From: Collinsella aerofaciens
Lineage (GTDB): Bacteria > Actinomycetota > Coriobacteriia > Coriobacteriales > Coriobacteriaceae
DNA length: 64,000 nucleotides
Direction of reading: 5' to 3'
Assembly (NCBI RefSeq): GCF_028209885.1
Contig: NZ_JAQLEM010000005.1
Coordinates: forward strand, 1-64,000
Shown: positions 27,944 through 62,622 of the stretch, piece by piece
Layout: the number at the start of each line of letters is the position of its first letter
How positions within the stretch are numbered: the first letter of the stretch is position 1
Translations under genes and position numbers: made by a program
Notes under the pieces: generated by a model
Seen by the model: the letters and a program-made list of their open reading frames with translations, nothing else
What the model was told of the DNA's origin: nothing
Databases searched by the model: none

Positions 27944-27972
27944 CACTCATTGGGGACAGACTTACATGAGTG
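27944..27972 (+). repeat. REP-type palindromic repeat, family 1 copy a
   Basis: CACTCAT and ATGAGTG form a 7-bp stem around TGGGGACAGACTTAC. The 16-mer at 27946-27961 recurs perfectly inverted at 28936-28951 on the other side of RAYT1. It follows the rpmB terminator directly, between convergent genes. Confidence 0.75.
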
Positions 27973-28027: not shown

Positions 28028-28804
28028 TCACGCAGCCTCCCTCCAGCCTACGGTGGCCTTGGTCACGCTTGTAGCGCCGATGCCGGTGATACGGGCAATT
28101 TGCTTGACCGTGAGATGTGCCCGCCTGAGCCTCAGCAGACACGCATCACGATCGGGGCGTGGCAGGGCCTTGAGCAGCGCAGGATCTATGCTCGGAAGGA
28201 CTTCGCGCGCAACGGAAAGAGCATCCTCATCGAGGATCCGTCGGCGTGGAAGAATCTCAACTGACCAGATCCGCCCGGCAACTTCCTTAAGATGCTCACA
28301 ATAGTGACGAGACCCCCCGACAATATCGAGCATAGGGGCCGCATCGCAGATGTCAAAGGGATCGTAGCCCAGCTGGTATGCCCTAAAGCTTGACCAGCGG
28401 TATGCTTCGAGAGAGTCGATCGCACCTTTCACAGGATTGAGATGGATATAATCGAGTAGCTGCACCGCCTGTGTGTCCGACTCAACCGCAACACGCGAAT
28501 AGCGATTGTCAAACAGATGTCCCGTTCTCCCCGTTTTCCCATTGAAATACTTAGCATATGCCGTCAGCGCGCACTGCATTGCCTTTGAAAGGTTGTCAAA
28601 TGGGTCATCAATCATCAAATGGAAGTGGTTGTCCATAAGGCACCAAGCTAACACCGCCACGTCATGGCGCGCAAACCTGTCCGAGATATCCGATAAGAAA
28701 CGATAACGGTCGGAGTCATCTTCAAAAATAATCTGTTTAGAGTTGCCACGGTCAAAGACGTGGTAATAGCCGGTGAGCGAAACGGCACGGGCGCATCGAG
28801 GCAT
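28028..28804 (-). CDS. REP-associated tyrosine transposase (RAYT1)
   Basis: Single-domain HUH nuclease of the Y1/IS200-related superfamily, domesticated RAYT type. HxH is His60-Phe-His62 in CLMDNHFH. The tyrosine helix carries YAKYFNGKTGRTGHLF (Tyr83/Tyr86 candidates). The C-terminus (231-250) is a helix-turn-helix-like TVKQIARITGIG, not present in the E. coli enzyme. Length 258. ATG at 28804 follows AAAGGAGAGA, but this site is paired in a perfect 10-bp stem. A single copy flanked by inverted 16-mers and no IS ends argues for a RAYT with cognate repeats, not an autonomous insertion sequence. Confidence 0.85.
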   Translation of the reverse strand: MPRCARAVSLTGYYHVFDRGNSKQIIFEDDSDRYRFLSDISDRFARHDVAVLAWCLMDNHFHLMIDDPFDNLSKAMQCALTAYAKYFNGKTGRTGHLFDNRYSRVAVESDTQAVQLLDYIHLNPVKGAIDSLEAYRWSSFRAYQLGYDPFDICDAAPMLDIVGGSRHYCEHLKEVAGRIWSVEILPRRRILDEDALSVAREVLPSIDPALLKALPRPDRDACLLRLRRAHLTVKQIARITGIGATSVTKATVGWREAA

Positions 28805-28935: not shown

Positions 28936-28951
28936 GTCTGTCCCCAATGAG
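28936..28951 (-). repeat. REP family 1 copy c (inverted)
   Basis: GTCTGTCCCCAATGAG, the exact reverse complement of 27946-27961, lying 132 bases upstream of RAYT1. Together the two copies bracket a 1,006-base segment containing RAYT1. Confidence 0.8.
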
Positions 28952-52860: not shown

Positions 52861-52939
52861 GGTGGTTACCTTATGAAGATACCAATGCAGCAAACTTGCA
52901 GGTCAAATGCTAGTTTCTTGCTAAATCGCTTTACCATAA

Positions 52940-52970
52940 GTAGCTAATTTGGGACGGGGCTTTTTTAGCT
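52940..52970 (+). repeat. REP family 2 copy A1
   Basis: Starts GTAGCTAATTTGGGACGGGG and runs through a T-rich stretch to TTAGCT. It is the first arm of an inverted pair with 53015-53044. Confidence 0.75.
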
Positions 52971-53014
52971 GCCCCCGCAGGCAATCGACCAAAATGGTCG
53001 CGACTTCAGCCGGG

Positions 53015-53044
53015 GTAGCTAAAACCCCGTCCCAAATTAGCTAC
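53015..53044 (-). repeat. REP family 2 copy A2 (inverted)
   Basis: GTAGCTAAAACCCCGTCCC then AAATTAGCTAC: reverse orientation to A1, 44 bases away. It contains the TAG stop codon of ppsR (53041-53043). Confidence 0.78.
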
Positions 53045-53916
53045 TTTTGCTGGGCTCGACGGGCGGCGCGGCGGGCACGGACTTCTTGGATTTCCTCCAA
53101 GTGGCTAATGATCTCGGCAGCGCTTTCTTCGATGGCCTTGCCGTCGGTACGCACCACAAAGCAGCCTAGGCGCTTCATGAGCGCACGGGCTTCATCGAGC
53201 TCGCTGTGCACGCTCTCAGGCTCGGCATAGGAGCCGGCAACGGCACGAGCGTAGTCATCGCCCAAGCGGCTATCGCGAATTTCGGAAATCACATCGACGG
53301 TCGAAATCAGGCCGAACAGGCGCATCGGGTCGACCTCGTAAATCGACTTGGGCGGCTCCATGCCATGCGCCAGTGGGACATTGGCGACCTTGTAGCCCTG
53401 ATAGGCCAAATACATCGACAGCGGCGTCTTGGACGTACGCGATACGCCCAGCAGCACGATATCGGCTCCCGACAGATCGTCGCAGCCGTGCCCGTCATCG
53501 TGCTCAACGAAATACTCCATGGCCTCGATACGATGGAAATAGCGGTCATCGGTCCTGTGAATCACGCCCGCAACGCCTTTGGGCGGCACACCGATGAGCG
53601 ACGACAGCACGGCAAGCGTCGGGCCAATCAGGTCGACTGAACGAATATGCAGCATACCCAGGTAATCGAGCACGCGGGCGCGAAGCGCCGGATCGACAAT
53701 GGTGTGAAACACGGCAATATCGCGATGGTCCGCATCGACGCGCGGGCCCACAAACGACTCCACCTGCTCCACCGAGGTCACCTTGGGCAGGCGCAAGAGA
53801 AGAAAAGCCCCTTCATCAAATTGCCCGGACGCCGCAAGCACCACTTCACAAGCGGTATCACCGAGCGAGTCGGAGATAACGATAACGGTGGGACGAGCGG
53901 TGACCGGGCAATCCAT
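53041..53916 (-). CDS. ppsR: PPDK regulatory kinase/pyrophosphorylase
   Basis: DUF299-family bifunctional enzyme that inactivates its target dikinase by ADP-dependent Thr phosphorylation and reverses it by Pi-dependent phosphorolysis. N-terminal VIVISDSLGDTA. The P-loop-like GVSRTSKT is at 157-164. The C-terminus is helical and basic. Length 291. ATG at 53916 has AAAAGGAG 6 nt upstream. It lies next to ppdK, which makes PPDK the likely target rather than PEP synthase. Its last codon and stop (AAG TAG) merge into REP copy A2. Confidence 0.95.
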   Translation of the reverse strand: MDCPVTARPTVIVISDSLGDTACEVVLAASGQFDEGAFLLLRLPKVTSVEQVESFVGPRVDADHRDIAVFHTIVDPALRARVLDYLGMLHIRSVDLIGPTLAVLSSLIGVPPKGVAGVIHRTDDRYFHRIEAMEYFVEHDDGHGCDDLSGADIVLLGVSRTSKTPLSMYLAYQGYKVANVPLAHGMEPPKSIYEVDPMRLFGLISTVDVISEIRDSRLGDDYARAVAGSYAEPESVHSELDEARALMKRLGCFVVRTDGKAIEESAAEIISHLEEIQEVRARRAARRAQQK

Positions 53917-53950
53917 GCGGGGCTCCTTTTGCGCTTATGCGCAGGCTGGC

Positions 53951-56047
53951 TTACTTTTTGCGGGCAAGCTCACCGATGTTGGCGATGCCGGAGAAAACGG
54001 CCTCGAAGCGGTTGAGCAGCTTAAGGCGATTATCGCGGAGCTGCTCGTCCTTGTCCATGACCATAACCTCATCGAAGAAGCGGTCGATGGGCGCGCGCAG
54101 GGCGGCAAGGGCGGCAAATGCGGCCGGGTAATCCTCGGCAGCAAGGGCGGCATCGACAGCGGTCTGAGCAGCCTCGGAGGCATCGGCAAGCGCGAGCCCG
54201 GCCTCGCCCATCAGGCCGCGGTCGTACTCCGCACCCAGCTCGGGCTTGGAGATGTGTGCGGCGCGGGCATAGGCGGTCGCAAGGTTGTCAAAGGTCTCGG
54301 CGTCGTTCTTGCGGGCCTCGTCGAGGGCGGCGCAGCGGGCGAAGAAGACGGACGGGGCGATGATATGCACCGCGGAGACGGCGGCAACGGTATCGGCCGG
54401 GATCTTTTCGTCGCGGGCCATGCTCACCAGGCGGCCATGGAAGAAGTCGCGAACCTGCTGGGCGACCTTGGCAGCGTCGAACTCAATACCCTGCTCGCTA
54501 TAGAGCTCGAGGGCGAAGTCGATGAGCGACGTGGGGTCGATCGGCAAGCGGTCGCGCAGGATGTTGATGATGCCGATAGCGGCACGACGCAGCGCGTAGG
54601 GGTCCGAAGAGCCGGTCGGGGGCTCGCCGATGGCAAAGATACCGGCGATGGTATCGAGCTTATCGGCGCAGGCCACGATGCAGCCAGCGGTGCCCTCGGG
54701 CAGCTCGTCACCGGCAAAGCGAGGACGATAGTGATCGCGAATAGCATGAGCGACCTCGTCGTTCTCCCCCATCGCGGTCGCGTAATAACCGCCCATCACG
54801 CCCTGCTGGCTCGTGAACTCGACGACGGCGTTGGATACCAGGTCGGCCTTGCACAGGTGCGCGGCGCGAGCGGCATCGGCTGCCAGGTGAGCACCCAGGT
54901 GTGCCTCACGGGCAATAGCGAGCGCGAGCTGCTCGATGCGCTCGGACTTGGCGAGCACGCTACCGAGCTTCTCTTGGAAGGCAACCTTGGCCAGACGCTC
55001 ACGGAACTCGTCGAGGGAGATCTTCAAGTCCTCCTCGTAGAAGAACTTGGCATCGTCCAGACGTGCACGCACAACGCGCTCGTTGCCGTCGATCACGCGC
55101 TCGGCATTCTCGGGCTTGCTGTTGGAAACGACCACGAACTCACGCGTGAGCTTACCCTCGCCGTCATAGATCGGGAAGTAGCGCTGGTTGGTGAGCATGG
55201 ACTCGCAGATAATCTCGTGCGGGACCTTGAGGAACTCCTCATCGAAGGTACCGACGAGCACCGTCGGCCACTCGCAGAGGTTAATAACCTCCTCAAAGAC
55301 CTTCTTGGGCGTATCGACATGGCAGCCGGGACGGGCGGCCTCGACCTCGGCGATACCGGCGAGGATGGCCTCACGACGGCGCTCGGCAGAAAGCACGCCG
55401 GCATCCTCGAGCACCTGCTCGTAGACGGCAGGGCTAGCGACCACATGGTCACCGGGGCCAAGCACGCGATGACCACGCGTGGTGTTGCCGCTCGTCACGT
55501 CGGCAAACGACACGGGCACAACGTCCTCGCCCAGAAGGCAGCAGATCCAGCGGACCGGACGAACAAAGGTCGCATGCTCGTGACCCCAGCGCTGGCTGCG
55601 GTAGTTGGGCCACTGCAGGCCGGCGATAGTCTTCTCGCACAGAGACGTCAGGATCGGCGTAGCCGGAGCGGAGGGAATGTTCTTCTCGGCGAACACATAC
55701 TCGCGACCGTCAGTATCCTCGCGACGGACCAGGTCCTCGGCAGCCACACCGCACTTGCGGGCAAAGCCCTGGGCGGCCTTGGTGGCGTTACCGTCAGCGT
55801 CGAAGGCAATGTTGGCCGCGGGGCCACGCTTGACCTCGTGAACCTCATCGGTCGCGGTGGCGACGTCGGCAACGAGTGCAGCCAGGCGACGCGGACTCGA
55901 GATCACGCGGACCTCGCCGTGGGCCAGACCGGCCTCGTCGAGACCCTTGGCGATCATGGTGCCAAGCTGCTTGACGGCATTGTTCAGCGGTGCAGAGGGC
56001 ATTTCCTCCGTACCGATCTCAAACAGGAAATCCTTAGCGTCTGCCAT
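53951..56047 (-). CDS. glyS: Glycyl-tRNA synthetase beta subunit
   Basis: tRNA-binding subunit of the bacterial alpha2-beta2 GlyRS. Starts MADAKDFLFEIGTEEMPSAPL, the family N-terminus. An HD-like region and C-terminal DALR-type anticodon domain follow. Length 698 is typical. It begins 3 nt after the glyQ stop. Downstream ppsR starts 34 bases further. Confidence 0.96.
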   Translation of the reverse strand: MADAKDFLFEIGTEEMPSAPLNNAVKQLGTMIAKGLDEAGLAHGEVRVISSPRRLAALVADVATATDEVHEVKRGPAANIAFDADGNATKAAQGFARKCGVAAEDLVRREDTDGREYVFAEKNIPSAPATPILTSLCEKTIAGLQWPNYRSQRWGHEHATFVRPVRWICCLLGEDVVPVSFADVTSGNTTRGHRVLGPGDHVVASPAVYEQVLEDAGVLSAERRREAILAGIAEVEAARPGCHVDTPKKVFEEVINLCEWPTVLVGTFDEEFLKVPHEIICESMLTNQRYFPIYDGEGKLTREFVVVSNSKPENAERVIDGNERVVRARLDDAKFFYEEDLKISLDEFRERLAKVAFQEKLGSVLAKSERIEQLALAIAREAHLGAHLAADAARAAHLCKADLVSNAVVEFTSQQGVMGGYYATAMGENDEVAHAIRDHYRPRFAGDELPEGTAGCIVACADKLDTIAGIFAIGEPPTGSSDPYALRRAAIGIINILRDRLPIDPTSLIDFALELYSEQGIEFDAAKVAQQVRDFFHGRLVSMARDEKIPADTVAAVSAVHIIAPSVFFARCAALDEARKNDAETFDNLATAYARAAHISKPELGAEYDRGLMGEAGLALADASEAAQTAVDAALAAEDYPAAFAALAALRAPIDRFFDEVMVMDKDEQLRDNRLKLLNRFEAVFSGIANIGELARKK

Positions 56048-56050
56048 GGC

Positions 56051-56962
56051 TTACGCCACCTCGCCTTCCTGGTCGGCATTCTCGTTGACTCCGGCGACCT
56101 CGGCCATGTAGGCCTCGCAGCACGCCTTGGCGACGGCGCGGACGCGCAGGATGTAGTTGGCACGCTCGACCGCGGACAGCGCGCCACGGGCATCGAGCAG
56201 GTTGAAGGCGTGGCTGCACTTCATGACGCAGTCGTACGCCGGCAGCGGCAGCTTGCGCTCCAGACAGGAGTGGCACTCGGCCTCGTAGTCGTCAAACTTC
56301 TGACGCATCATCTCGACGTTGGCGACCTCAAAGTTATAGGCACTGAACTCGCGCTCGTTCTCGAGGAACACGTCGCCATAGGTCATGGGCGTGCCGTCGG
56401 GCAGGTAGCTCCACACCAGGTCGTAGACCGAGTTAACGCCCTGGGCGTACATGGCGATACGCTCCAGGCCATAGGTGATCTCGACGGGCACGGGGTCAAC
56501 CTCGATGCCGCCCACCTGCTGGAAGTACGTAAACTGCGTGACCTCCATGCCATTGAGCCAGACCTCCCAGCCAAGACCCCAGGCGCCGAGCGTCGGGCTC
56601 TCCCAGTCGTCCTCGACAAAGCGGACGTCATGGTCGTTGGGGTCCAGACCGATAGCGGCAAGAGACCCCAGGTAGAGCTCCTGGGCGTTAACCGGAGAAG
56701 GCTTGATGAGCACCTGGAACTGATAGTAGTGCTGCATGCGGTTGGGGTTCTCGCCGTAGCGGCCGTCGGCGGGACGGCGGCAGGGCTGCGCATAGCAGGT
56801 GCGCCACTCGGCGGAACCGAGCGAGCGCAGCGTGGTCGCGGTATGGAAGGTACCGGCACCGACCTCGGAGTCATAGGGCTGCATAATGACGCAGCCCTGC
56901 TCGCCCCAGTACTGCTGGAGGCGCAGGATGATGTCTTGGAAGGAAAGCGATGAAGCGTTCAT
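56051..56962 (-). CDS. glyQ: Glycyl-tRNA synthetase alpha subunit
   Basis: Class II catalytic subunit that activates glycine. Family blocks: [33 protein letters not shown]-like [20 protein letters not shown], and [21 protein letters not shown]. Length 303. ATG at 56962 has GAGG just upstream. There is no T-box in the 59-base gap to lepB. Confidence 0.97.
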
Positions 56963-57021
56963 GCCTCTAATATCCCCTCGTCGAAACGATTACACGGTTA
57001 GGTACTGTACTATAGCGGTTT

Positions 57022-57585
57022 TTAGTCGATAGCGCCGATGCGGTTGAGCGGCCAGTAGCGAACGAGTGCCACAGCAATCAAATCAGAGCGATCGACGGGA
57101 CCAAAGTAGCGTGAGTCGGCAGAGTTTTCGCGGTTGTCGCCCATCACCCACACGCACCCGTCGGGAACGGTGTAGGGATAGCTTACCTGAGTGCCGGGTG
57201 CTTGGACCGAAAGTGGCCAGCTCATGCCCGTCGTATAGTCCTCGTCGAGCGCTTGGCCGTCAACGACCACCTTGCCATCCTGCAGGTCGACCGTCTGGCC
57301 GGCCGTGGCAATAACACGCTTGACAAGAACATCATGCTCGGAGGTGCCATCGGGGTTGTGAAACACCACGATATCGCCCTGCTTGACGGGCTGACCGAGC
57401 TCGAGGCTCACCTTTTGTGCCAGGATCTGGTCGCCAATCTCGATCGTGGACTCCATGGAGCCGGTGGGCACCACAAAGGGCTCGACCACAAACGAGCGAA
57501 TCAAGAAGGTGGCGACCAGTGCGATCGCGATGACCGCGATCCACTCAAAAGCGCCCCTCAACGCGGAATGCTGCGATGGAACCAT
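57022..57585 (-). CDS. lepB: Signal peptidase I
   Basis: Membrane serine protease removing Sec/Tat signal peptides. One N-terminal membrane segment (about 12-32), catalytic Ser43 in PTGSMEST and Lys89 in DVLVKRVIA, then GDNRENSADSR near the end. Length 187, the compact Gram-positive type. ATG at 57585 has GAGGAG 5 nt upstream formed by the last codons of trmD (gap 2 nt). Confidence 0.95.
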   Translation of the reverse strand: MVPSQHSALRGAFEWIAVIAIALVATFLIRSFVVEPFVVPTGSMESTIEIGDQILAQKVSLELGQPVKQGDIVVFHNPDGTSEHDVLVKRVIATAGQTVDLQDGKVVVDGQALDEDYTTGMSWPLSVQAPGTQVSYPYTVPDGCVWVMGDNRENSADSRYFGPVDRSDLIAVALVRYWPLNRIGAID

Positions 57586-57587
57586 TC

Positions 57588-58346
57588 TCACTCCTCGCTC
57601 TGCGAATACGAAGCGTCCAAAATCTCCTGCGCGTAAGCGCGCTCCTCGGGCGTGAGCCGCGCCGTCTCGATCAAGTCGGGACGCCAGCGGCAGGTGCGCT
57701 CGATGGCGTTCTTGCGACGCCAGACATCGACCTTGGCGTGATCGCCGCTCACAAGCACCGGCGGCACGCCCTCGCCGTTGAACTCGGCGGGACGGGTGTA
57801 CTGCGCGTACTCGAGCAGGCCTCCGTCCTCGGCGGTCGAGAACGACTCGTCCACATTGCTCATCTCGTCGCCCAGGGCGCCGGGAATCAGGCGTACGACG
57901 GCATCGGCAACGACCATAGCGGGAAGTTCGCCACCCGTAAGCACGTAGTCGCCGATCGACAGACGCTCATCGGCATACGCATACGCACGCTCGTCGACGC
58001 CCTCGTAGCGGCTGCACACAAACAGCAGGCGCTCACTTTTGAGCAGGCGCTCGGCCACATGTTGCGTAAAGGGCTCGCCACAGGGGGTGAAGAACACTAC
58101 GGTGGGCTTGGGACCCTCGGAGCTGATGGCCTCGATGGCCTCGGCAATAGGCTCGACCTTCATGAGCATGCCCTGCCCGCCGCCGTACGGCTCGTCATCG
58201 ACGGTACGATGGCGGTCGTGCGTCCAGTCGCGCAGGTTATACGCCTTAAAATCAAAAAGGCCGGCCTTGCGGGCGCGGCCCAAGATCGATGTGGACATGA
58301 CGGGCTCAAACATCTCGGGAAAGACCGAAAGGGTCTCGATCAGCAT
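57588..58346 (-). CDS. trmD: tRNA (guanine37-N1)-methyltransferase
   Basis: SAM-dependent SPOUT enzyme that prevents frameshifting by m1G37. It has the knot region with YEGVDERA and IGDYVLTGGELPAM, and the tRNA-binding C-terminus. Length 252. ATG at 58346 has GGGAGG upstream. It is part of rpsP-khpA-rimM-trmD-lepB. Confidence 0.97.
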   Translation of the reverse strand: MLIETLSVFPEMFEPVMSTSILGRARKAGLFDFKAYNLRDWTHDRHRTVDDEPYGGGQGMLMKVEPIAEAIEAISSEGPKPTVVFFTPCGEPFTQHVAERLLKSERLLFVCSRYEGVDERAYAYADERLSIGDYVLTGGELPAMVVADAVVRLIPGALGDEMSNVDESFSTAEDGGLLEYAQYTRPAEFNGEGVPPVLVSGDHAKVDVWRRKNAIERTCRWRPDLIETARLTPEERAYAQEILDASYSQSEE

Positions 58347-58356
58347 GTTGTCCTCC

Positions 58357-58878
58357 CTACTTGTCCATATCGATCAGGCCGTCCATAACGTGGACGGAAA
58401 TTGTTCCTGTGTCGGGAAGATCGAGCACGACCTGCTCGATCACGGGAATCAGTACCTCGCCGTACCGATCGCCCTCAACAACCCAAACATCGTTAGCGGG
58501 CGTCGACATGATCTCTACGATCGTGCCGAGCAAACCGAAGCGCTCGTCGACCACCTCGCGACCCATCAGGTCGGTATAGGCAGCGTCGAGCGAATCGAGC
58601 TCAAAATCGTCACGATTTGCCAGCACGTAGCATCCCGTGATGCCCTCGGCGGCCGTCAAGTCGTCAATGCCCTCAAACGAGACCAGATCGCCATCGCCCG
58701 TATCGGTGACGGACACGACCGTGCAAAAGCGGTCGCGCTTGAGCGCCGGCGGCGTCAGGGCGACGCGCATACCCGGCTCTAATACAGAAGGAAGCCCCCG
58801 CAGCGGCTGCGCGAGGACTTCCCCCTTCCTTCCGTGCGGCTTGACAACACGGGCGATGTTTTTGTACTGGAACCTCAA
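58357..58878 (-). CDS. rimM: 16S rRNA processing protein RimM
   Basis: 30S maturation factor binding S19. N-terminal barrel KNIARVVKPHGRKGEVLA and C-terminal PRC-like domain with DVWVVEGDRYGEVLIPVI. Length 173. The start is TTG at 58878, with only a short TAGGA site formed around the khpA stop codon, so coupling to khpA is likely. Confidence 0.93.
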   Translation of the reverse strand: MRFQYKNIARVVKPHGRKGEVLAQPLRGLPSVLEPGMRVALTPPALKRDRFCTVVSVTDTGDGDLVSFEGIDDLTAAEGITGCYVLANRDDFELDSLDAAYTDLMGREVVDERFGLLGTIVEIMSTPANDVWVVEGDRYGEVLIPVIEQVVLDLPDTGTISVHVMDGLIDMDK

Positions 58879-58882
58879 GGTC

Positions 58883-59167
58883 CTAGCCCAGAACCTCTAC
58901 CTCGACAGCAGTGTCGAGGCGAGCGGCCAGTGCACGGGCGAGCGTGCGAATGGCCTTGATGGTACGGCCACGACGGCCGATGACCTTAGCGACGTCATCC
59001 TCGGCGACCGAAACCTCAATCGTAGAGGCGTCGTCACCATCGATGACCTCAAGGCTCACGGAATCCGGGTCGTCGACGATCTGAACAACGAGATATTCGA
59101 CGAGATCGGCGATGCGATCTGAGAGCATTGCCTCACCCTCGAGCTGTGCAGCGTCAACCTCAGGCAC
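58883..59167 (-). CDS. khpA: RNA-binding KH domain protein KhpA
   Basis: Small KH protein that with KhpB binds RNA in Gram-positives. Its GRRG loop is in AKVIGRRGRTIKAIRTL. Length 94, with a short N-terminal tail before MLSDRIADLVEYLV. The true start could be either GTG 59167 (GAGGAG 6 nt upstream, preferred) or the ATG 13 codons later. The rpsP-khpA-rimM-trmD order is conserved. Confidence 0.93.
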   Translation of the reverse strand: MPEVDAAQLEGEAMLSDRIADLVEYLVVQIVDDPDSVSLEVIDGDDASTIEVSVAEDDVAKVIGRRGRTIKAIRTLARALAARLDTAVEVEVLG

Positions 59168-59170
59168 GAT

Positions 59171-59512
59171 TTACTCCTCGGCGCCCTCAGCGGCCTCAGC
59201 GGCAGCCTTAGCGGCCTCGGCCTCTTTGGCGAGCTGCTTCTTGGACTTCTTGACGACGGTCTCGGTCTTCTCGCCCTCGTTGGCGGCCTTGACCAGAGCG
59301 GCGACGGCGTCGGTGAGCTGAGCGCCCTTGGACTGCCAGTCGGCGATCTTCTCGAGATCGAGGTTGATGGTCTTGGGGGCGGTCATCGGGTTGTAGCGGC
59401 CAACCTCCTCGATGATACGACCGTCACGCGGGGCGCGGGAATCGGCGACGACGACACGGTAGTACGGACGCTTCTTAGCGCCGTGACGAGCAAGGCGAAT
59501 CTTGACTGCCAA
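59171..59512 (-). CDS. rpsP: 30S ribosomal protein S16
   Basis: Early 30S assembly protein. It reads [25 protein letters not shown], then an Ala/Lys/Glu-rich C-terminal extension of about 30 residues beyond the typical core. Length 113. The start is TTG at 59512 with GGAGGAG 5 nt upstream. It heads the rimM-trmD-lepB unit behind a -35/-10 promoter. Confidence 0.96.
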
Positions 59513-59569
59513 AGGAAACTCCTCCAACCAAGCAGCTTTAGGCTGCAACTACAAACAAACAGTTGAACA

Positions 59570-59598
59570 TAATACGCCATCGACGCGGGCAGGTGAAG
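59570..59598 (-). promoter_or_regulatory. Promoter of rpsP unit
   Basis: TTCACC and TATTAT on the minus strand with a 17-bp spacer. The leader of about 50 nt contains a GCAGC/GCTGC hairpin at 59533-59547. Confidence 0.6.
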
Positions 59599-59701
59599 TC
59601 CGTGAGACCAACTTCTTCGGTGTAGTCGAGGGCAAATCCATATCTTAGACAAGAATTCGGGATTTGCAAGCACATACACGCACCCCACATGAGCTGCGCG
59701 G

Positions 59702-59707
59702 TATACT
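59702..59707 (+). promoter_or_regulatory. -10 of dinB, probably leaderless
   Basis: TATACT ends only 6 nt before the dinB ATG at 59714, so transcription would begin at or next to the start codon. No Shine-Dalgarno sequence is present. No LexA/SOS palindrome was recognised. Confidence 0.45.
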
Positions 59708-59713
59708 CATGAC

Positions 59714-60967
59714 ATGGAAAGACGCGAACATACATACGGTTATGAGGATGCCATGGGCGTCACGCCGCCTCCCTGGACGGGTCCGGCGGTGGGCCTGATG
59801 GACCTTGATGCGTTTTTTGCGAGCGTGGAAATGCTCGATCATCCCGAATGGCGCGGAAAGCCGCTCATCGTGGGCGGAGACGCCGATTCGCGTGGCGTCG
59901 TGTCCACGTGTTCGTATGAGGCGCGTCGCTTTGGCGTGCACTCTGCCATGGCCTCGGCCGAGGCGCGGCGCCTGTGCCCGCAAGCCATTTGGACGCACGG
60001 GCACTTTGATCGCTACCACGAGGTGAGCGCGCAGGTCATGGCGATTCTCGCCGACGAGACCCCGCGCGTTGAACGCGTATCCATCGACGAAGCCTTTATC
60101 GATATCACACCGGGTCGCTTTGCGCCCGAAGACCCGCTGCTGGTTGCGCAGCGCATCAGCGATCGCGTGGCAGCGCTGGGGGTGACCTGCTCCATTGGCG
60201 TGGGCTGCAACAAGACGGTCGCAAAAATCGCAAGCGAGCGGGACAAGCCGTTTGGGCTGACCATCGTGCGCCCTGGAACCGAGCAGCGCTTTTTGGCCGC
60301 GCTGCCGGTATCTGCTATGAGCGGCATCGGACGCTCGGCCGAGGAACGGCTGCGCCGCATGCGCATCTACACGCTTGGCGAGCTGTCACGCGCACCGGAA
60401 TCCACCTTGGCCTCTATTTTTGGCGTCAACGGCGAACGCATGCGCCAACGTGCGCTGGGGCTCGAAATCTCCGAAGTCACAAGTCTCGATGAAGAGCGCG
60501 AGGTCAAGTCGGTCAGCAATGAACGCACCTTTGCGAAAGATTTGACTGAGCGCGGGGACATCGAAGCGGCGATTGCGCTGTTGGGAGAGTCAGTGGGACG
60601 CCGTCTGCGCCGTCAGGGGCTGACGGGTGCCACGGTAACGCTCAAGCTTAAGTATTCGTATGGCAGCGGGCGTACGGCACAGCGCCGGCTGACGCATCCG
60701 ACCGACGATGAGAACATCTTTGTAGCGGTGGCGCTCGAGCTGCTCGACAACATCTGGCAGGAAGGCATGCATGTGCGCCTGGCGGGCATCGGCATGAGCG
60801 ACTTCGACCATCAGGGCGGCATCCAGACCGACCTGTTCTGCGAAGTCGACGACCGCGGAGCCCAATCCAGCGACCGTCGCGACCTCTCGGTCGCCATCGA
60901 CGCCGTCCGAGACAAATTCGGCGACACCGCCCTTTCCTTCGGCCGCCAATCCCGCTTCAAAAACTAA
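59714..60967 (+). CDS. dinB: DNA polymerase IV (Y family)
   Basis: Error-prone translesion polymerase. Catalytic acids are in GLMDLDAFFASVE (Asp30, Asp32) and VSIDEAF. The finger/thumb HhH region (MSGIGRSAEERL) and little-finger domain follow. At 417 residues it has an extra C-terminal tail and lacks a clear beta-clamp QL-x-L/F peptide. The best candidate is near the end (IQTDLF). The start at 59714 is leaderless. ATG at 59752 with GAGG upstream is an alternative. It is divergent from rpsP. Confidence 0.94.
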   Translation: MERREHTYGYEDAMGVTPPPWTGPAVGLMDLDAFFASVEMLDHPEWRGKPLIVGGDADSRGVVSTCSYEARRFGVHSAMASAEARRLCPQAIWTHGHFDRYHEVSAQVMAILADETPRVERVSIDEAFIDITPGRFAPEDPLLVAQRISDRVAALGVTCSIGVGCNKTVAKIASERDKPFGLTIVRPGTEQRFLAALPVSAMSGIGRSAEERLRRMRIYTLGELSRAPESTLASIFGVNGERMRQRALGLEISEVTSLDEEREVKSVSNERTFAKDLTERGDIEAAIALLGESVGRRLRRQGLTGATVTLKLKYSYGSGRTAQRRLTHPTDDENIFVAVALELLDNIWQEGMHVRLAGIGMSDFDHQGGIQTDLFCEVDDRGAQSSDRRDLSVAIDAVRDKFGDTALSFGRQSRFKN

Positions 60968-60973
60968 TCTTTT

Positions 60974-60992
60974 TTGGACGGGGCTTTTTGCT
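60974..60992 (+). repeat. REP family 2 degenerate copy B0
   Basis: TTGGACGGGGCTTTTTGCT, a decayed copy 7 bases after the dinB stop. Confidence 0.4.
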
Positions 60993-61015
60993 GCCTTCCG
61001 TCCGACACGGCATGG

Positions 61016-61048
61016 GTAGTCAATTTGGGACGGGGCTATTTTAGCTAC
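61016..61048 (+). repeat. REP family 2 copy B1
   Basis: Starts GTAGTCAATTTGGGACGGGG and ends TTAGCTAC. With B2 it forms a 36-bp perfect inverted repeat (61014-61049 with 61105-61140). Confidence 0.88.
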
Positions 61049-61105
61049 CTCTATATCTCGGTTGAACTTCATCCCGGCCCACAATCATTCACCGTCAGGC
61101 AAAGG

Positions 61106-61138
61106 GTAGCTAAAATAGCCCCGTCCCAAATTGACTAC
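61106..61138 (-). repeat. REP family 2 copy B2 (inverted)
   Basis: Exact reverse complement of B1, separated from it by a 55-base unique loop. The pair lies between convergent dinB and RAYT2 and could also stop transcription from both sides. Confidence 0.88.
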
Positions 61139-61161
61139 CCCGGATGCCCGGTTTGGTGGCC

Positions 61162-61193
61162 GTAGCAAAATTACCCCGCCTGAAATGAGCTAC
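61162..61193 (-). repeat. REP family 2 divergent copy B3
   Basis: Minus strand begins GTAGCTCATTTCAGGCGGGG and ends TTTTGCTAC. Both GTAG feet are kept while the middle has changed. It contains the TAG stop codon of RAYT2 (61190-61192). Confidence 0.65.
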
Positions 61194-61939
61194 TTTTCAA
61201 CTTTGACTTTTTGAATCGTGCAGTGGCCGATGCCCGTGAGGCGCACGATCTGCTTGATCGAAAAGCCCTCGCTTTTGAGCTTGCGGATACAGTCATCACG
61301 CACGCCCTTTGGCAGAGCTTTGAGATGGTGAGGCTCGTAAGGTTTGAGCAACGCCTGCGCAAACTCAAGCGCGTCAGCATCACTCACGTGAGCGCCATAA
61401 CGGAAGCAATAGCCATTGGGCTCGCCCGAGGTACTAAATGCAAAAAACCTCTGGGAATTCCCGAGCAACTCGAGCACGCAATCAGTCTTACAAATACCCG
61501 GATAGCCCATATACTCGCTAAAGCTGCTCCAGCGATAGAGCGAAGCAGTGTCAATTCTGGCTTTCGCAGGGTTATCGTGAATGTAACGAACGCAGCTGAG
61601 CAGCTGATCATCATCAAGAATCGGCACGCTCTTAAATCGATCCTGGAAGAGTGGACCCTTTCTGCCTGTCTTAGAATTGAAATACATGGCATACCCCGTC
61701 GTAATCGAATGCATGCAATCACTCAGATGAGCATGCTCATCGTCAAGCAGAAGATGAATATGGTTATCCATAAGGCACCACGCGATGACATCAACTTTGA
61801 ACTTCTGGCATTTCGAAGCAATCAGCCGAATCAAATAGAGTCGATCATCCTCATCCTCAAATATCAGCTGACCACCACACCCCTTTTGAACGACATGGTA
61901 AAAGCCATATTCAGAGATTTCTCGCGCAGTCCGAGTCAT
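61190..61939 (-). CDS. REP-associated tyrosine transposase (RAYT2)
   Basis: Second Y1/HUH RAYT, 249 residues. HxH at His60-Ile-His62 (CLMDNHIH), the tyrosine helix YAMYFNSKTGRKGPLF (Tyr83/Tyr86), and a C-terminal helix-turn-helix-like segment SIKQIVRLTGIG (about 227-238). The start at 61939 has GAGGAGGG 7 nt upstream. It places every motif at the same residue number as in RAYT1. Outside the motifs the two proteins differ widely, so they are old paralogues, not a recent duplication. It is flanked on both sides by family 2 repeats, and its stop codon lies in one. Confidence 0.85.
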   Translation of the reverse strand: MTRTAREISEYGFYHVVQKGCGGQLIFEDEDDRLYLIRLIASKCQKFKVDVIAWCLMDNHIHLLLDDEHAHLSDCMHSITTGYAMYFNSKTGRKGPLFQDRFKSVPILDDDQLLSCVRYIHDNPAKARIDTASLYRWSSFSEYMGYPGICKTDCVLELLGNSQRFFAFSTSGEPNGYCFRYGAHVSDADALEFAQALLKPYEPHHLKALPKGVRDDCIRKLKSEGFSIKQIVRLTGIGHCTIQKVKVEK

Positions 61940-62040
61940 ACGCATTCCCTCCTCTACAGACAAGAATTACGTTACCCGAGCCAGAGCAGAAAAAAACGTA
62001 CTGGGTGCGACAAATCGCGTTGTTCGGCGAACGGTAGGTG

Positions 62041-62073
62041 GTAGCTAAAAAAGCCCCGTCCCAAATTAGCTAC
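62041..62073 (-). repeat. REP family 2 copy C1
   Basis: GTAGCTAAAAAAGCCCCGTC followed by CCAAATTAGCTAC. It is the cleanest full-length copy: GTAGCTAA/TTAGCTAC feet give an 8-bp stem around a 17-nt loop. It lies 101 bases upstream of the RAYT2 start. Confidence 0.85.
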
Positions 62074-62089
62074 TTTTGGGCAAAAGAAA

Positions 62090-62122
62090 GCCGGGCAGCT
62101 GCAAATGGTGCAACTGCCCGGC
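62090..62122 (-). terminator. Terminator of rsfS unit
   Basis: A 14-bp stem with one wobble (GCCGGGCAG / CTGCCCGGC core) and a 5-nt loop. On the minus strand TTTCTTTTG follows. It lies between REP copies C1 and C2. Confidence 0.85.
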
Positions 62123-62134
62123 AAACGGATAAGG

Positions 62135-62157
62135 GTAGCTAAAAAAGCCCTGGCCCA
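62135..62157 (-). repeat. REP family 2 partial copy C2
   Basis: GTAGCTAAAAAAGCCCTGGC and CCA, then the sequence departs. One foot is missing. It lies 9 bases past the rsfS stop, inside its 3' untranslated region. Confidence 0.6.
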
Positions 62158-62166
62158 AGCAAAGCT

Positions 62167-62622
62167 CTAGAGGAGGTTGAGGGGGAGCTGGGGGGCGTCG
62201 CCCCAGAGCTTCTCGAGACGGTAGAAGTCACGTGCCTCGGGGGTGAAGACGTGGACGACGACTGAACCGTAATCCATGAGCATCCAGGTCTTCTGCTCGC
62301 GGCCCTCGATGGAGAACGGGTGCTCACCGCAAGCCTCGGCGACCTTCTCCTCGATCTCGTCGACGATAGAATCGACCTGACGGTTGTTGGTACCGGTGGC
62401 GAGCACAAAGTAGTCGCACACGTCGGAGAGCTCAGTCAGGTCGAGCACCTGAACGTCCTCGCCCTTCTTGTCGTAGGCAGCCTGCGCGGCGGCGCGGGCG
62501 ACATCCTCGGCGGCGACACCGCTCGTGGACAGCGAGGCGGCGGTACGGTCGGACGTGGCAACGAAGCTCTTGTGCTCCACACCTTCAAGAATCTGCTCGT
62601 CGGTCATGGTCTCGTCGGCCAT
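62167..62622 (-). CDS. rsfS: Ribosomal silencing factor RsfS
   Basis: Binds L14 and blocks subunit joining under starvation. Core residues: VLDLTELSDVCDYFVLATGTNNRQVDSIVDEIEEKV and KTWMLMDYGSVVVHVFTPEARDFYRLEKLWGDA. At 151 residues it has a 40-residue Ala/Glu-rich N-terminal extension. ATG at 62622 with a GAAAGAGG-type site. Last gene of nadD-yqeK-rsfS. Confidence 0.95.
   Translation of the reverse strand: MADETMTDEQILEGVEHKSFVATSDRTAASLSTSGVAAEDVARAAAQAAYDKKGEDVQVLDLTELSDVCDYFVLATGTNNRQVDSIVDEIEEKVAEACGEHPFSIEGREQKTWMLMDYGSVVVHVFTPEARDFYRLEKLWGDAPQLPLNLL

Follow-up and report, generated by a model that had tools for sequence, protein, structure and literature searches.

The first 64,000 nucleotides of a Collinsella aerofaciens contig (NZ_JAQLEM010000005.1; hereafter the window) contain a family of short palindromic repeats clustered around RAYT2, a gene for a Y1 (HuH) transposase located between rsfS and dinB. 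These repeats are probably small, non-autonomous mobile elements, similar to REPINs, that belong to a TIRYT-type lineage of Y1 transposases formed by RAYT2 and its relative RAYT2b, and not the GTAG repetitive extragenic palindromic (REP) sequences known from Escherichia coli. Genome comparison reveals a family that is restricted to one clade, forms inverted pairs, flanks RAYT2, covaries between its arms, and changes its terminal "feet" where RAYT2b replaces RAYT2. On these alignments the past mobility and the pairing of the repeats are well supported. We infer that RAYT2 is the enzyme moving them, because the repeat units flank the gene and the foot changes together with it.

The repeat unit is 33 bp long and reads GTAGCTAA-TTTGGGACGGGGC-TTTT-TTAGCTAC. 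The two ends of each unit (GTAGCTAA...TTAGCTAC) are symmetric to each other and enclose the asymmetric GGGACGGGG, and the pattern across the family is GYAG/CTAATTTGGGACGGGGC..TTAG/CTRC. Exact matches to TTTGGGACGGGGC occur four times in the window (52948+, 61024+, 61118-, 62053-) and matches with one mismatch twice (53024-, 60972+), against means of 0.0 exact matches and 0.05 with at most one mismatch in 20 simulated sequences that follow the first-order base transitions of the window. The sequence GTAGCTAA is found nine times where 0.5 are expected, and eight of the nine occurrences lie inside repeats. The repeat core alone, searched with up to three mismatches, displays no excess in the window (22 found, 24 expected by chance), so the decayed copy at 62135 is recognized by its intact GTAGCTAAAAAAGCCC half and the one at 61162 by its two feet. 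The original prediction, made from the letters of the window, listed eight copies sharing GTAG-type feet and a core. Copies are indeed present at all eight positions, six of them clear and two decayed (61162 and 62135); the copy at 60974 has no outer foot.

Pairing of the units in inverted orientation produces long hairpins. The pair beside ppsR (52935–53049) has 29-nt arms that are 93% complementary, and the pair just downstream of RAYT2 (61014–61140) has 36-nt arms with 100% complementarity; folded as single-stranded DNA, they reach z-scores of -10.5 and -13.9, respectively (200 shuffles each). Folding is weak for a single unit (z -2.2), within which the foot GTAG pairs with CTAC. The right foot of the ppsR-side pair, CTAC, overlaps the ppsR stop codon. 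RAYT2 itself is enclosed by the units at 61016 and 62041, which form inverted flanks of 34 nt with 91% complementarity. The prediction of a repeat family clustered around RAYT2, with inverted pairs like those of bacterial interspersed mosaic elements (BIMEs), is supported by the flanks and by these two pairs, which also resemble REPINs. The copies at 62041 and 62135 share the same orientation and so do not form such a pair. How often feet coincide with stop codons was counted too, but this count was dropped, as it is inflated by open frames in GC-rich DNA.

The rsfS-dinB locus exists in alternative states. We matched rsfS in 42 of 43 Collinsella genomes (numbered with G; the match is weak in G026, and G032 has none) and read the gap between rsfS and dinB in 21 of them and in the window; the closest compared genome, G001, has 39% of sampled words in common with the window. 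RAYT2 flanked on both sides by GTAG units occupies the locus in the window and in G001, G007, G022 and G025, the piece read for G001 stopping short of dinB. In all three genomes with RAYT2b (G002, G011 and G033) this gene is found at the same locus, and its flanking units maintain the GGGACGGGG core with ATGATT feet in place of GTAG. In thirteen genomes the gap is RAYT-free, measures ~120 bp and has, next to rsfS, a single and mostly decayed unit of the GTAG type; G005 displays an ATGATT-type unit followed by unrelated sequence. RAYT2 orthologues (86–92% identity) are present in 4 of the 43 genomes and RAYT2b (56–57%) in 3, with at most one of either per genome, always at rsfS-dinB where the locus was read. 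Compared by eye with the empty site of G034, RAYT2b in G002 and G011 has its right border inside a terminator loop, at an ATCATT that matches the end of the unit itself, as though the foot had been taken from the target.

On the tree, RAYT2 forms the sister group of RAYT2b (support 98/87), yet in a tree built from five genes of the neighbourhood (17 rows, with G001 and G033 absent and the branch of the window poorly supported) their carriers are intermixed. Between G002 and G011 the DNA identity is 99.7% for RAYT2b, 97.6% for rsfS and 95.9% for the 7-kb region containing it. The intermixed carriers, together with RAYT2b DNA being more alike than its surroundings, suggest that the cassette has been exchanged between Collinsella lineages. 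The rsfS-dinB gap is also occupied by a RAYT in more distant species (G021, G040 and, from match positions, G030), and these RAYTs form a separate group on the tree. There is perhaps an even chance that we are dealing with one locus harbouring alternative Y1 transposase alleles, RAYT2 and RAYT2b (56–57% identical), each with matching feet (GYAG or RATGATT) around the common GGGACGGGG core. The two would then be a natural enzyme pair of different specificity, exchanged between lineages, for which foot and insertion site have the same sequence and the arms change in concert.

Filled and empty forms of the same sites indicate past movement of the repeats. Among 16 genomes compared at the ppsR-ppdK site, the pair is present in four (window, G022, G010 and G012), and a clean empty site is found in one, G002, which has GTAGCTAC exactly at the place of the pair. 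The remaining genomes contain other or decayed units (six), unrelated sequence without the repeat (four) or an 11.7-kb island (G008). At a second site, L165 (22 rows), G022 has a GCAG-footed pair, and G007 and G002 have GCAGCTGC at the corresponding place; the others include a decayed pair (G013), a decayed unit (G035), an unrelated palindromic element (16 rows) and a different sequence in G014. Aligned in this way, the filled and empty forms join at GTAG/CTAC at the ppsR site and at GCAG/CTGC at L165. The feet differ between the two cases, and in each the empty site has the same sequence as the foot of its element. GYAGCT is common to filled and empty forms, which fits a cut between C and T, the exact position being unplaceable given a junction ambiguity of 2–3 nt. 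A 4-bp target duplication of AGCT would fit the two clean junctions, but conflicts with units bearing GTAGTC feet and was rejected. The sequence GTAGCTAC averages 10.3 copies per genome in carriers of the repeat and 6.0 in non-carriers (averaged by hand; its backward control is useless, being itself a very common palindrome), and this surplus is only suggestive of insertion scars.

The arms of inverted pairs change together. Across 22 pairs, arms differ from their own partners at 55 of 704 positions, compared with a mean of 90 and a minimum of 67 in 5000 shuffles; one mispaired case (L174) and several with indels were all kept, and some pairs are orthologous and therefore not independent. The feet of single units covary as well, the second base of the left foot with its partner on the right (P = 6.5e-5 for 150 listed rows, P = 0.047 for the 66 distinct ones, relatedness uncorrected); the 150 listed units replaced an earlier test on 102 chosen rows. 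GTAG is the foot in 114 of these units and GCAG in 30. The pairs have variable spacers, some of which fall into shared classes, and GTAG-family elements are found inserted in those of the ATGATT family and vice versa.

RAYT2 has its closest named relatives within the genus (92% identity in Collinsella sp. WCA1-178-WT-3 and 86% in C. aerofaciens). The protein scores 59.8 bits in the RAYT model of NCBI, under the cut-off of 80 (RAYT1, another RAYT of the window, scores 56.2). The HuH and Y-x3-NP motifs, a class 2 signature, are present as H68, H70, Y127, N131 and P132, invariant among 16 aligned sequences. C-terminal helix-turn-helix (HTH) signals are found in RAYT2 (HTH_7, E = 0.0074; HTH_23, E = 0.057) and in RAYT2b (HTH_23, E = 0.0013), all under the Pfam cut-offs. 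An AlphaFold model of RAYT2 from a 16-row alignment (mean pLDDT 85.5, pTM 0.68) has confident helices in this C-terminal part. The closest fold to the model is 4er8, a RAYT-REP complex (E 1.4e-6; TM 0.48 by query, 0.72 by target), followed by the transposases of IS200, IS608 and ISDra2, while a sequence search of the PDB returned no real relative.

These properties allow a mechanism to be proposed. The 33-bp unit, either single or as an inverted pair folding into one long single-strand hairpin, would be bound by RAYT2 as a hairpin on single-stranded DNA. RAYT2 would cut at or next to GYAG/CT, and the elements would be inserted or excised without target duplication. Many of the present copies would be relics in genomes that lost RAYT2.

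The exact repeat 15-mer is found in 22 of the 43 Collinsella genomes, at 2–49 copies, and its reversed control in none of the 43. Among 395 genomes of the order, 22 contain the 15-mer, every one of them from Collinsella and none from another genus. Genomes with RAYT2 have 6, 12, 49 and 13 exact copies, those with RAYT2b 3, 2 and 4, and the other 15 carriers 3–19. Several observations weigh against the preferred explanation. Copy number depends on RAYT2 only weakly: the excess over the 18 other carriers (2–19 copies) has a one-sided Mann-Whitney P of 0.025, or 0.079 without the 49-copy G022, a 20-mer with up to three mismatches gives 14, 19, 62 and 23 against 10–27 (P = 0.085; 0.24 without G022), and a strict 33-mer 6, 12, 53 and 14 against 3–15 (P = 0.032; 0.10 without G022). 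All three tests lean the expected way and rest on G022, so the copy-number fall in strains lacking RAYT2 that the original prediction anticipated appears as a weak tendency resting on one genome. The contrary outcome, a repeat equally common in relatives without any RAYT2 homologue, is largely what is seen at the genome level, as the 13 genomes with a RAYT-free gap keep 3–19 copies, with the qualification that every one of the 22 carriers has a RAYT-like match of some kind (as do 15 of the 21 non-carriers). ATGATT-type units are present in all 22 carriers and are not significantly commoner in RAYT2b genomes (13, 8 and 10 against 3–16; P = 0.073). The insertion target and an excision scar are indistinguishable at the filled and empty sites, and four further sites have no clean empty partner: L164 (21 rows, with the pair in G022 and G013), L172 (21 rows, remnants), L180 (a single unit with similar outer borders in 14 of 20 rows) and L183 (12 rows, with GTAGCTAC in five or GTAACTAC in four, ~18 nt from the G022 insertion). 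One orthologous pair shows differences between G022 and G013 in both of its arms, in the stem as well as the foot, so that feet may also be changed after insertion by arm correction.

The distribution raises the alternative that elements of the same kind were moved by another enzyme, RAYT1 or a third type acting in trans, or that all copies are old relics with RAYT2 merely among them. The retention of copies in 18 of 22 carriers without a RAYT2 orthologue, 13 of which have no RAYT at the locus, speaks for this, as does the RAYT-like match in every carrier. We nevertheless consider it unlikely, since the units flank RAYT2 itself, the foot changes with RAYT2b, and copy number peaks in G022, the genome with the RAYT2 most similar to that of the window. 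A further objection concerns RAYT1, located at 28049–28804 of the window and 40% identical to RAYT2: the repeat beside its loci is another one (GGGGACAGAC...CATGAGTG), with inverted flanks CTCATTGGGGACAGAC at 27946–27961 and 28936–28951 of the window.

Two other explanations concern the nature of the repeats. GTAG in most listed units, the inverted pairs and the fold match to 4er8 would agree with classical GTAG REPs or BIMEs of an E. coli-type (group 2/3) RAYT with GTAG as the fixed recognition tetranucleotide, and the original prediction implied as much by relating the GTAG foot to the characterized E. coli RAYT. Against this, GCAG replaces GTAG in a fifth of the listed units (30/150), the sister gene is associated with ATGATT, GTAG is paired within an end-symmetric unit and not unpaired at one end, RAYT2 falls short in the NCBI model, and the core contains GGGAC as in TIRYT repeats. 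We therefore regard a classical REP system as improbable. Still more improbable are fixed, non-mobile hairpins acting in termination or RNA stability at gene ends, with the pairing arising from RNA structure. Such a role would be compatible with the long hairpins and their T/A runs at the ends of genes, with the covarying arms and with the feet that overlap the ppsR and RAYT2 stop codons, but orthologous sites are patchy (at the ppsR site, a pair in 4/16 and a clean empty site in 1/16), the families nest, and copy number ranges from 2 to 49. The units may have a side role as terminators.

The preferred assignment to the TIRYT lineage agrees with the flanks of other RAYTs. Flanking repeats at 30 Collinsella RAYT loci contain GGGAC in 22 cases, GGGTCAG in two and neither at this word size in six (counted by eye, many loci being mutual orthologues; L041 and L042 were counted from the rsfS-dinB reading). 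GTAG feet are seen only with RAYT2 among the loci scanned, and the usual shared feature of Collinsella RAYT flanks is GGGAC, not GTAG. According to the available parts of PMC3733652 and PMC6006769, 20 of 26 members of the TIRYT group belong to Y1 subclass 2.1; their C-termini carry an HTH, and most of the inverted repeats have the GGGGWSAS motif. The system described here shares with these TIRtrons a RAYT-like Y1 gene between inverted repeats, a G-rich GGGAC-type core close to GGGGWSAS, dispersed single units and dimers, and a trace of a C-terminal HTH. It differs in that the RAYT2 unit reads TGGGACGG, two of eight positions off GGGGWSAS, and carries GTAG feet, and in that a single locus has two alleles differing in their feet; the RAYT1 flanks contain GGGGACAG and so fit the published motif. 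Because of the weak C-terminal HTH signal, RAYT2 appears to fit the published TIRYT type better than the E. coli type. The main text of PMC3733652 has none of the terms Collinsella, coriobacter and actinobacter. Among the papers listed on RAYTs, palindromic sequences and IS200 or MITE elements in Collinsella and on RAYTs in Coriobacteriia, none deals with this repeat, judged by titles and the starts of abstracts.

GTAG REPs, BIMEs and REPINs, as described in the available parts of PMC3733652, PMC3116915 and PMC8266576, also have a GTAG foot on most copies, hairpin-forming inverted doublets, compensatory changes and a tie to a RAYT. The Collinsella units are distinct in being end-symmetric with a paired GTAG instead of a constant unpaired GTAG at one end, in their GCAG and ATGATT variants, in low copy number (2–49) and in more different spacers. 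Characterized TnpA-REP enzymes are reported to cut between C and T (PMC8266576, in the part available).

IS200/IS605 elements are transposons with a Y1 transposase and hairpin ends. Both systems have the Y1 fold and join to their sites at a short fixed sequence, with no target duplication evident, but RAYT2 has an extra C-terminal part, and the dispersed copies are without the gene, with at most one RAYT2 per genome. A multicopy autonomous element with the gene inside is not what we find.

Table 1. Repeat units and genes of the window
Feature	Position	Strand	Comment
Inverted pair (REPIN-like) beside ppsR	52940..53044		units 52940–52972 (+) and 53015–53044 (-), spacer between
ppsR (pyruvate, phosphate dikinase/phosphoenolpyruvate synthase regulator)	53041..53916	-	neighbour of the distant pair; named by NCBIfam
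dinB (DNA polymerase IV)	59714..60967	+	neighbour; named by NCBIfam
Decayed unit without outer foot	60963..60996	+	directly after dinB
Inverted pair (REPIN-like)	61016..61138		just downstream of RAYT2; units 61016–61048 (+) and 61106–61138 (-)
Decayed unit	61162..61193	-	foot overlaps RAYT2 stop codon
RAYT2	61190..61963	-	257-aa Y1 (HuH) transposase, weak C-terminal HTH signal
Intact single unit	62041..62073	-	upstream of RAYT2
Half-decayed unit	62135..62161	-	adjoins rsfS stop; RAYT-less genomes have a unit at the same place
rsfS (ribosome silencing factor)	62167..62622	-	neighbour; named by NCBIfam

Several side observations were made at the compared sites. In the ppsR-ppdK pair of G012 (L134) the spacer runs opposite to that in the window, G022 and G010, which may reflect either recombination between the arms or an independent insertion the other way round. 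In the G008 island (L120:3000-14400), repeat units enclose an additional ~11.7 kb; its domains include an ABC transporter, a PqqD-like protein, two radical-SAM proteins and a methyltransferase, possibly a modified-peptide cluster placed at the repeat site. Another palindromic element (GTTGCGGTGAWATAG ... inverted) is found in the same gaps in 7 of 21 rows at L172 and 16 of 22 at L165 (L184-L204, L244-L265), and was not found in the window. At L164, the place taken by the GTAG-family pair in G022 and G013 is held in several genomes (L276-L292) by a further paired family, which has a GGGGACGTTCTT core and feet of the AGTCATT type.

The choice and spread of repeats by RAYTs are known, in the available literature, from proteobacterial enzymes. 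The two filled and empty junctions reported here yield concrete cut-site predictions for an enzyme of the TIRYT type, a type for which the same literature offered no biochemistry. The interesting part is the matched RAYT2 and RAYT2b alleles with different feet: sister enzymes at one locus, with the same core and changed feet, provide a comparison by which the part of the protein that reads the foot could be found.

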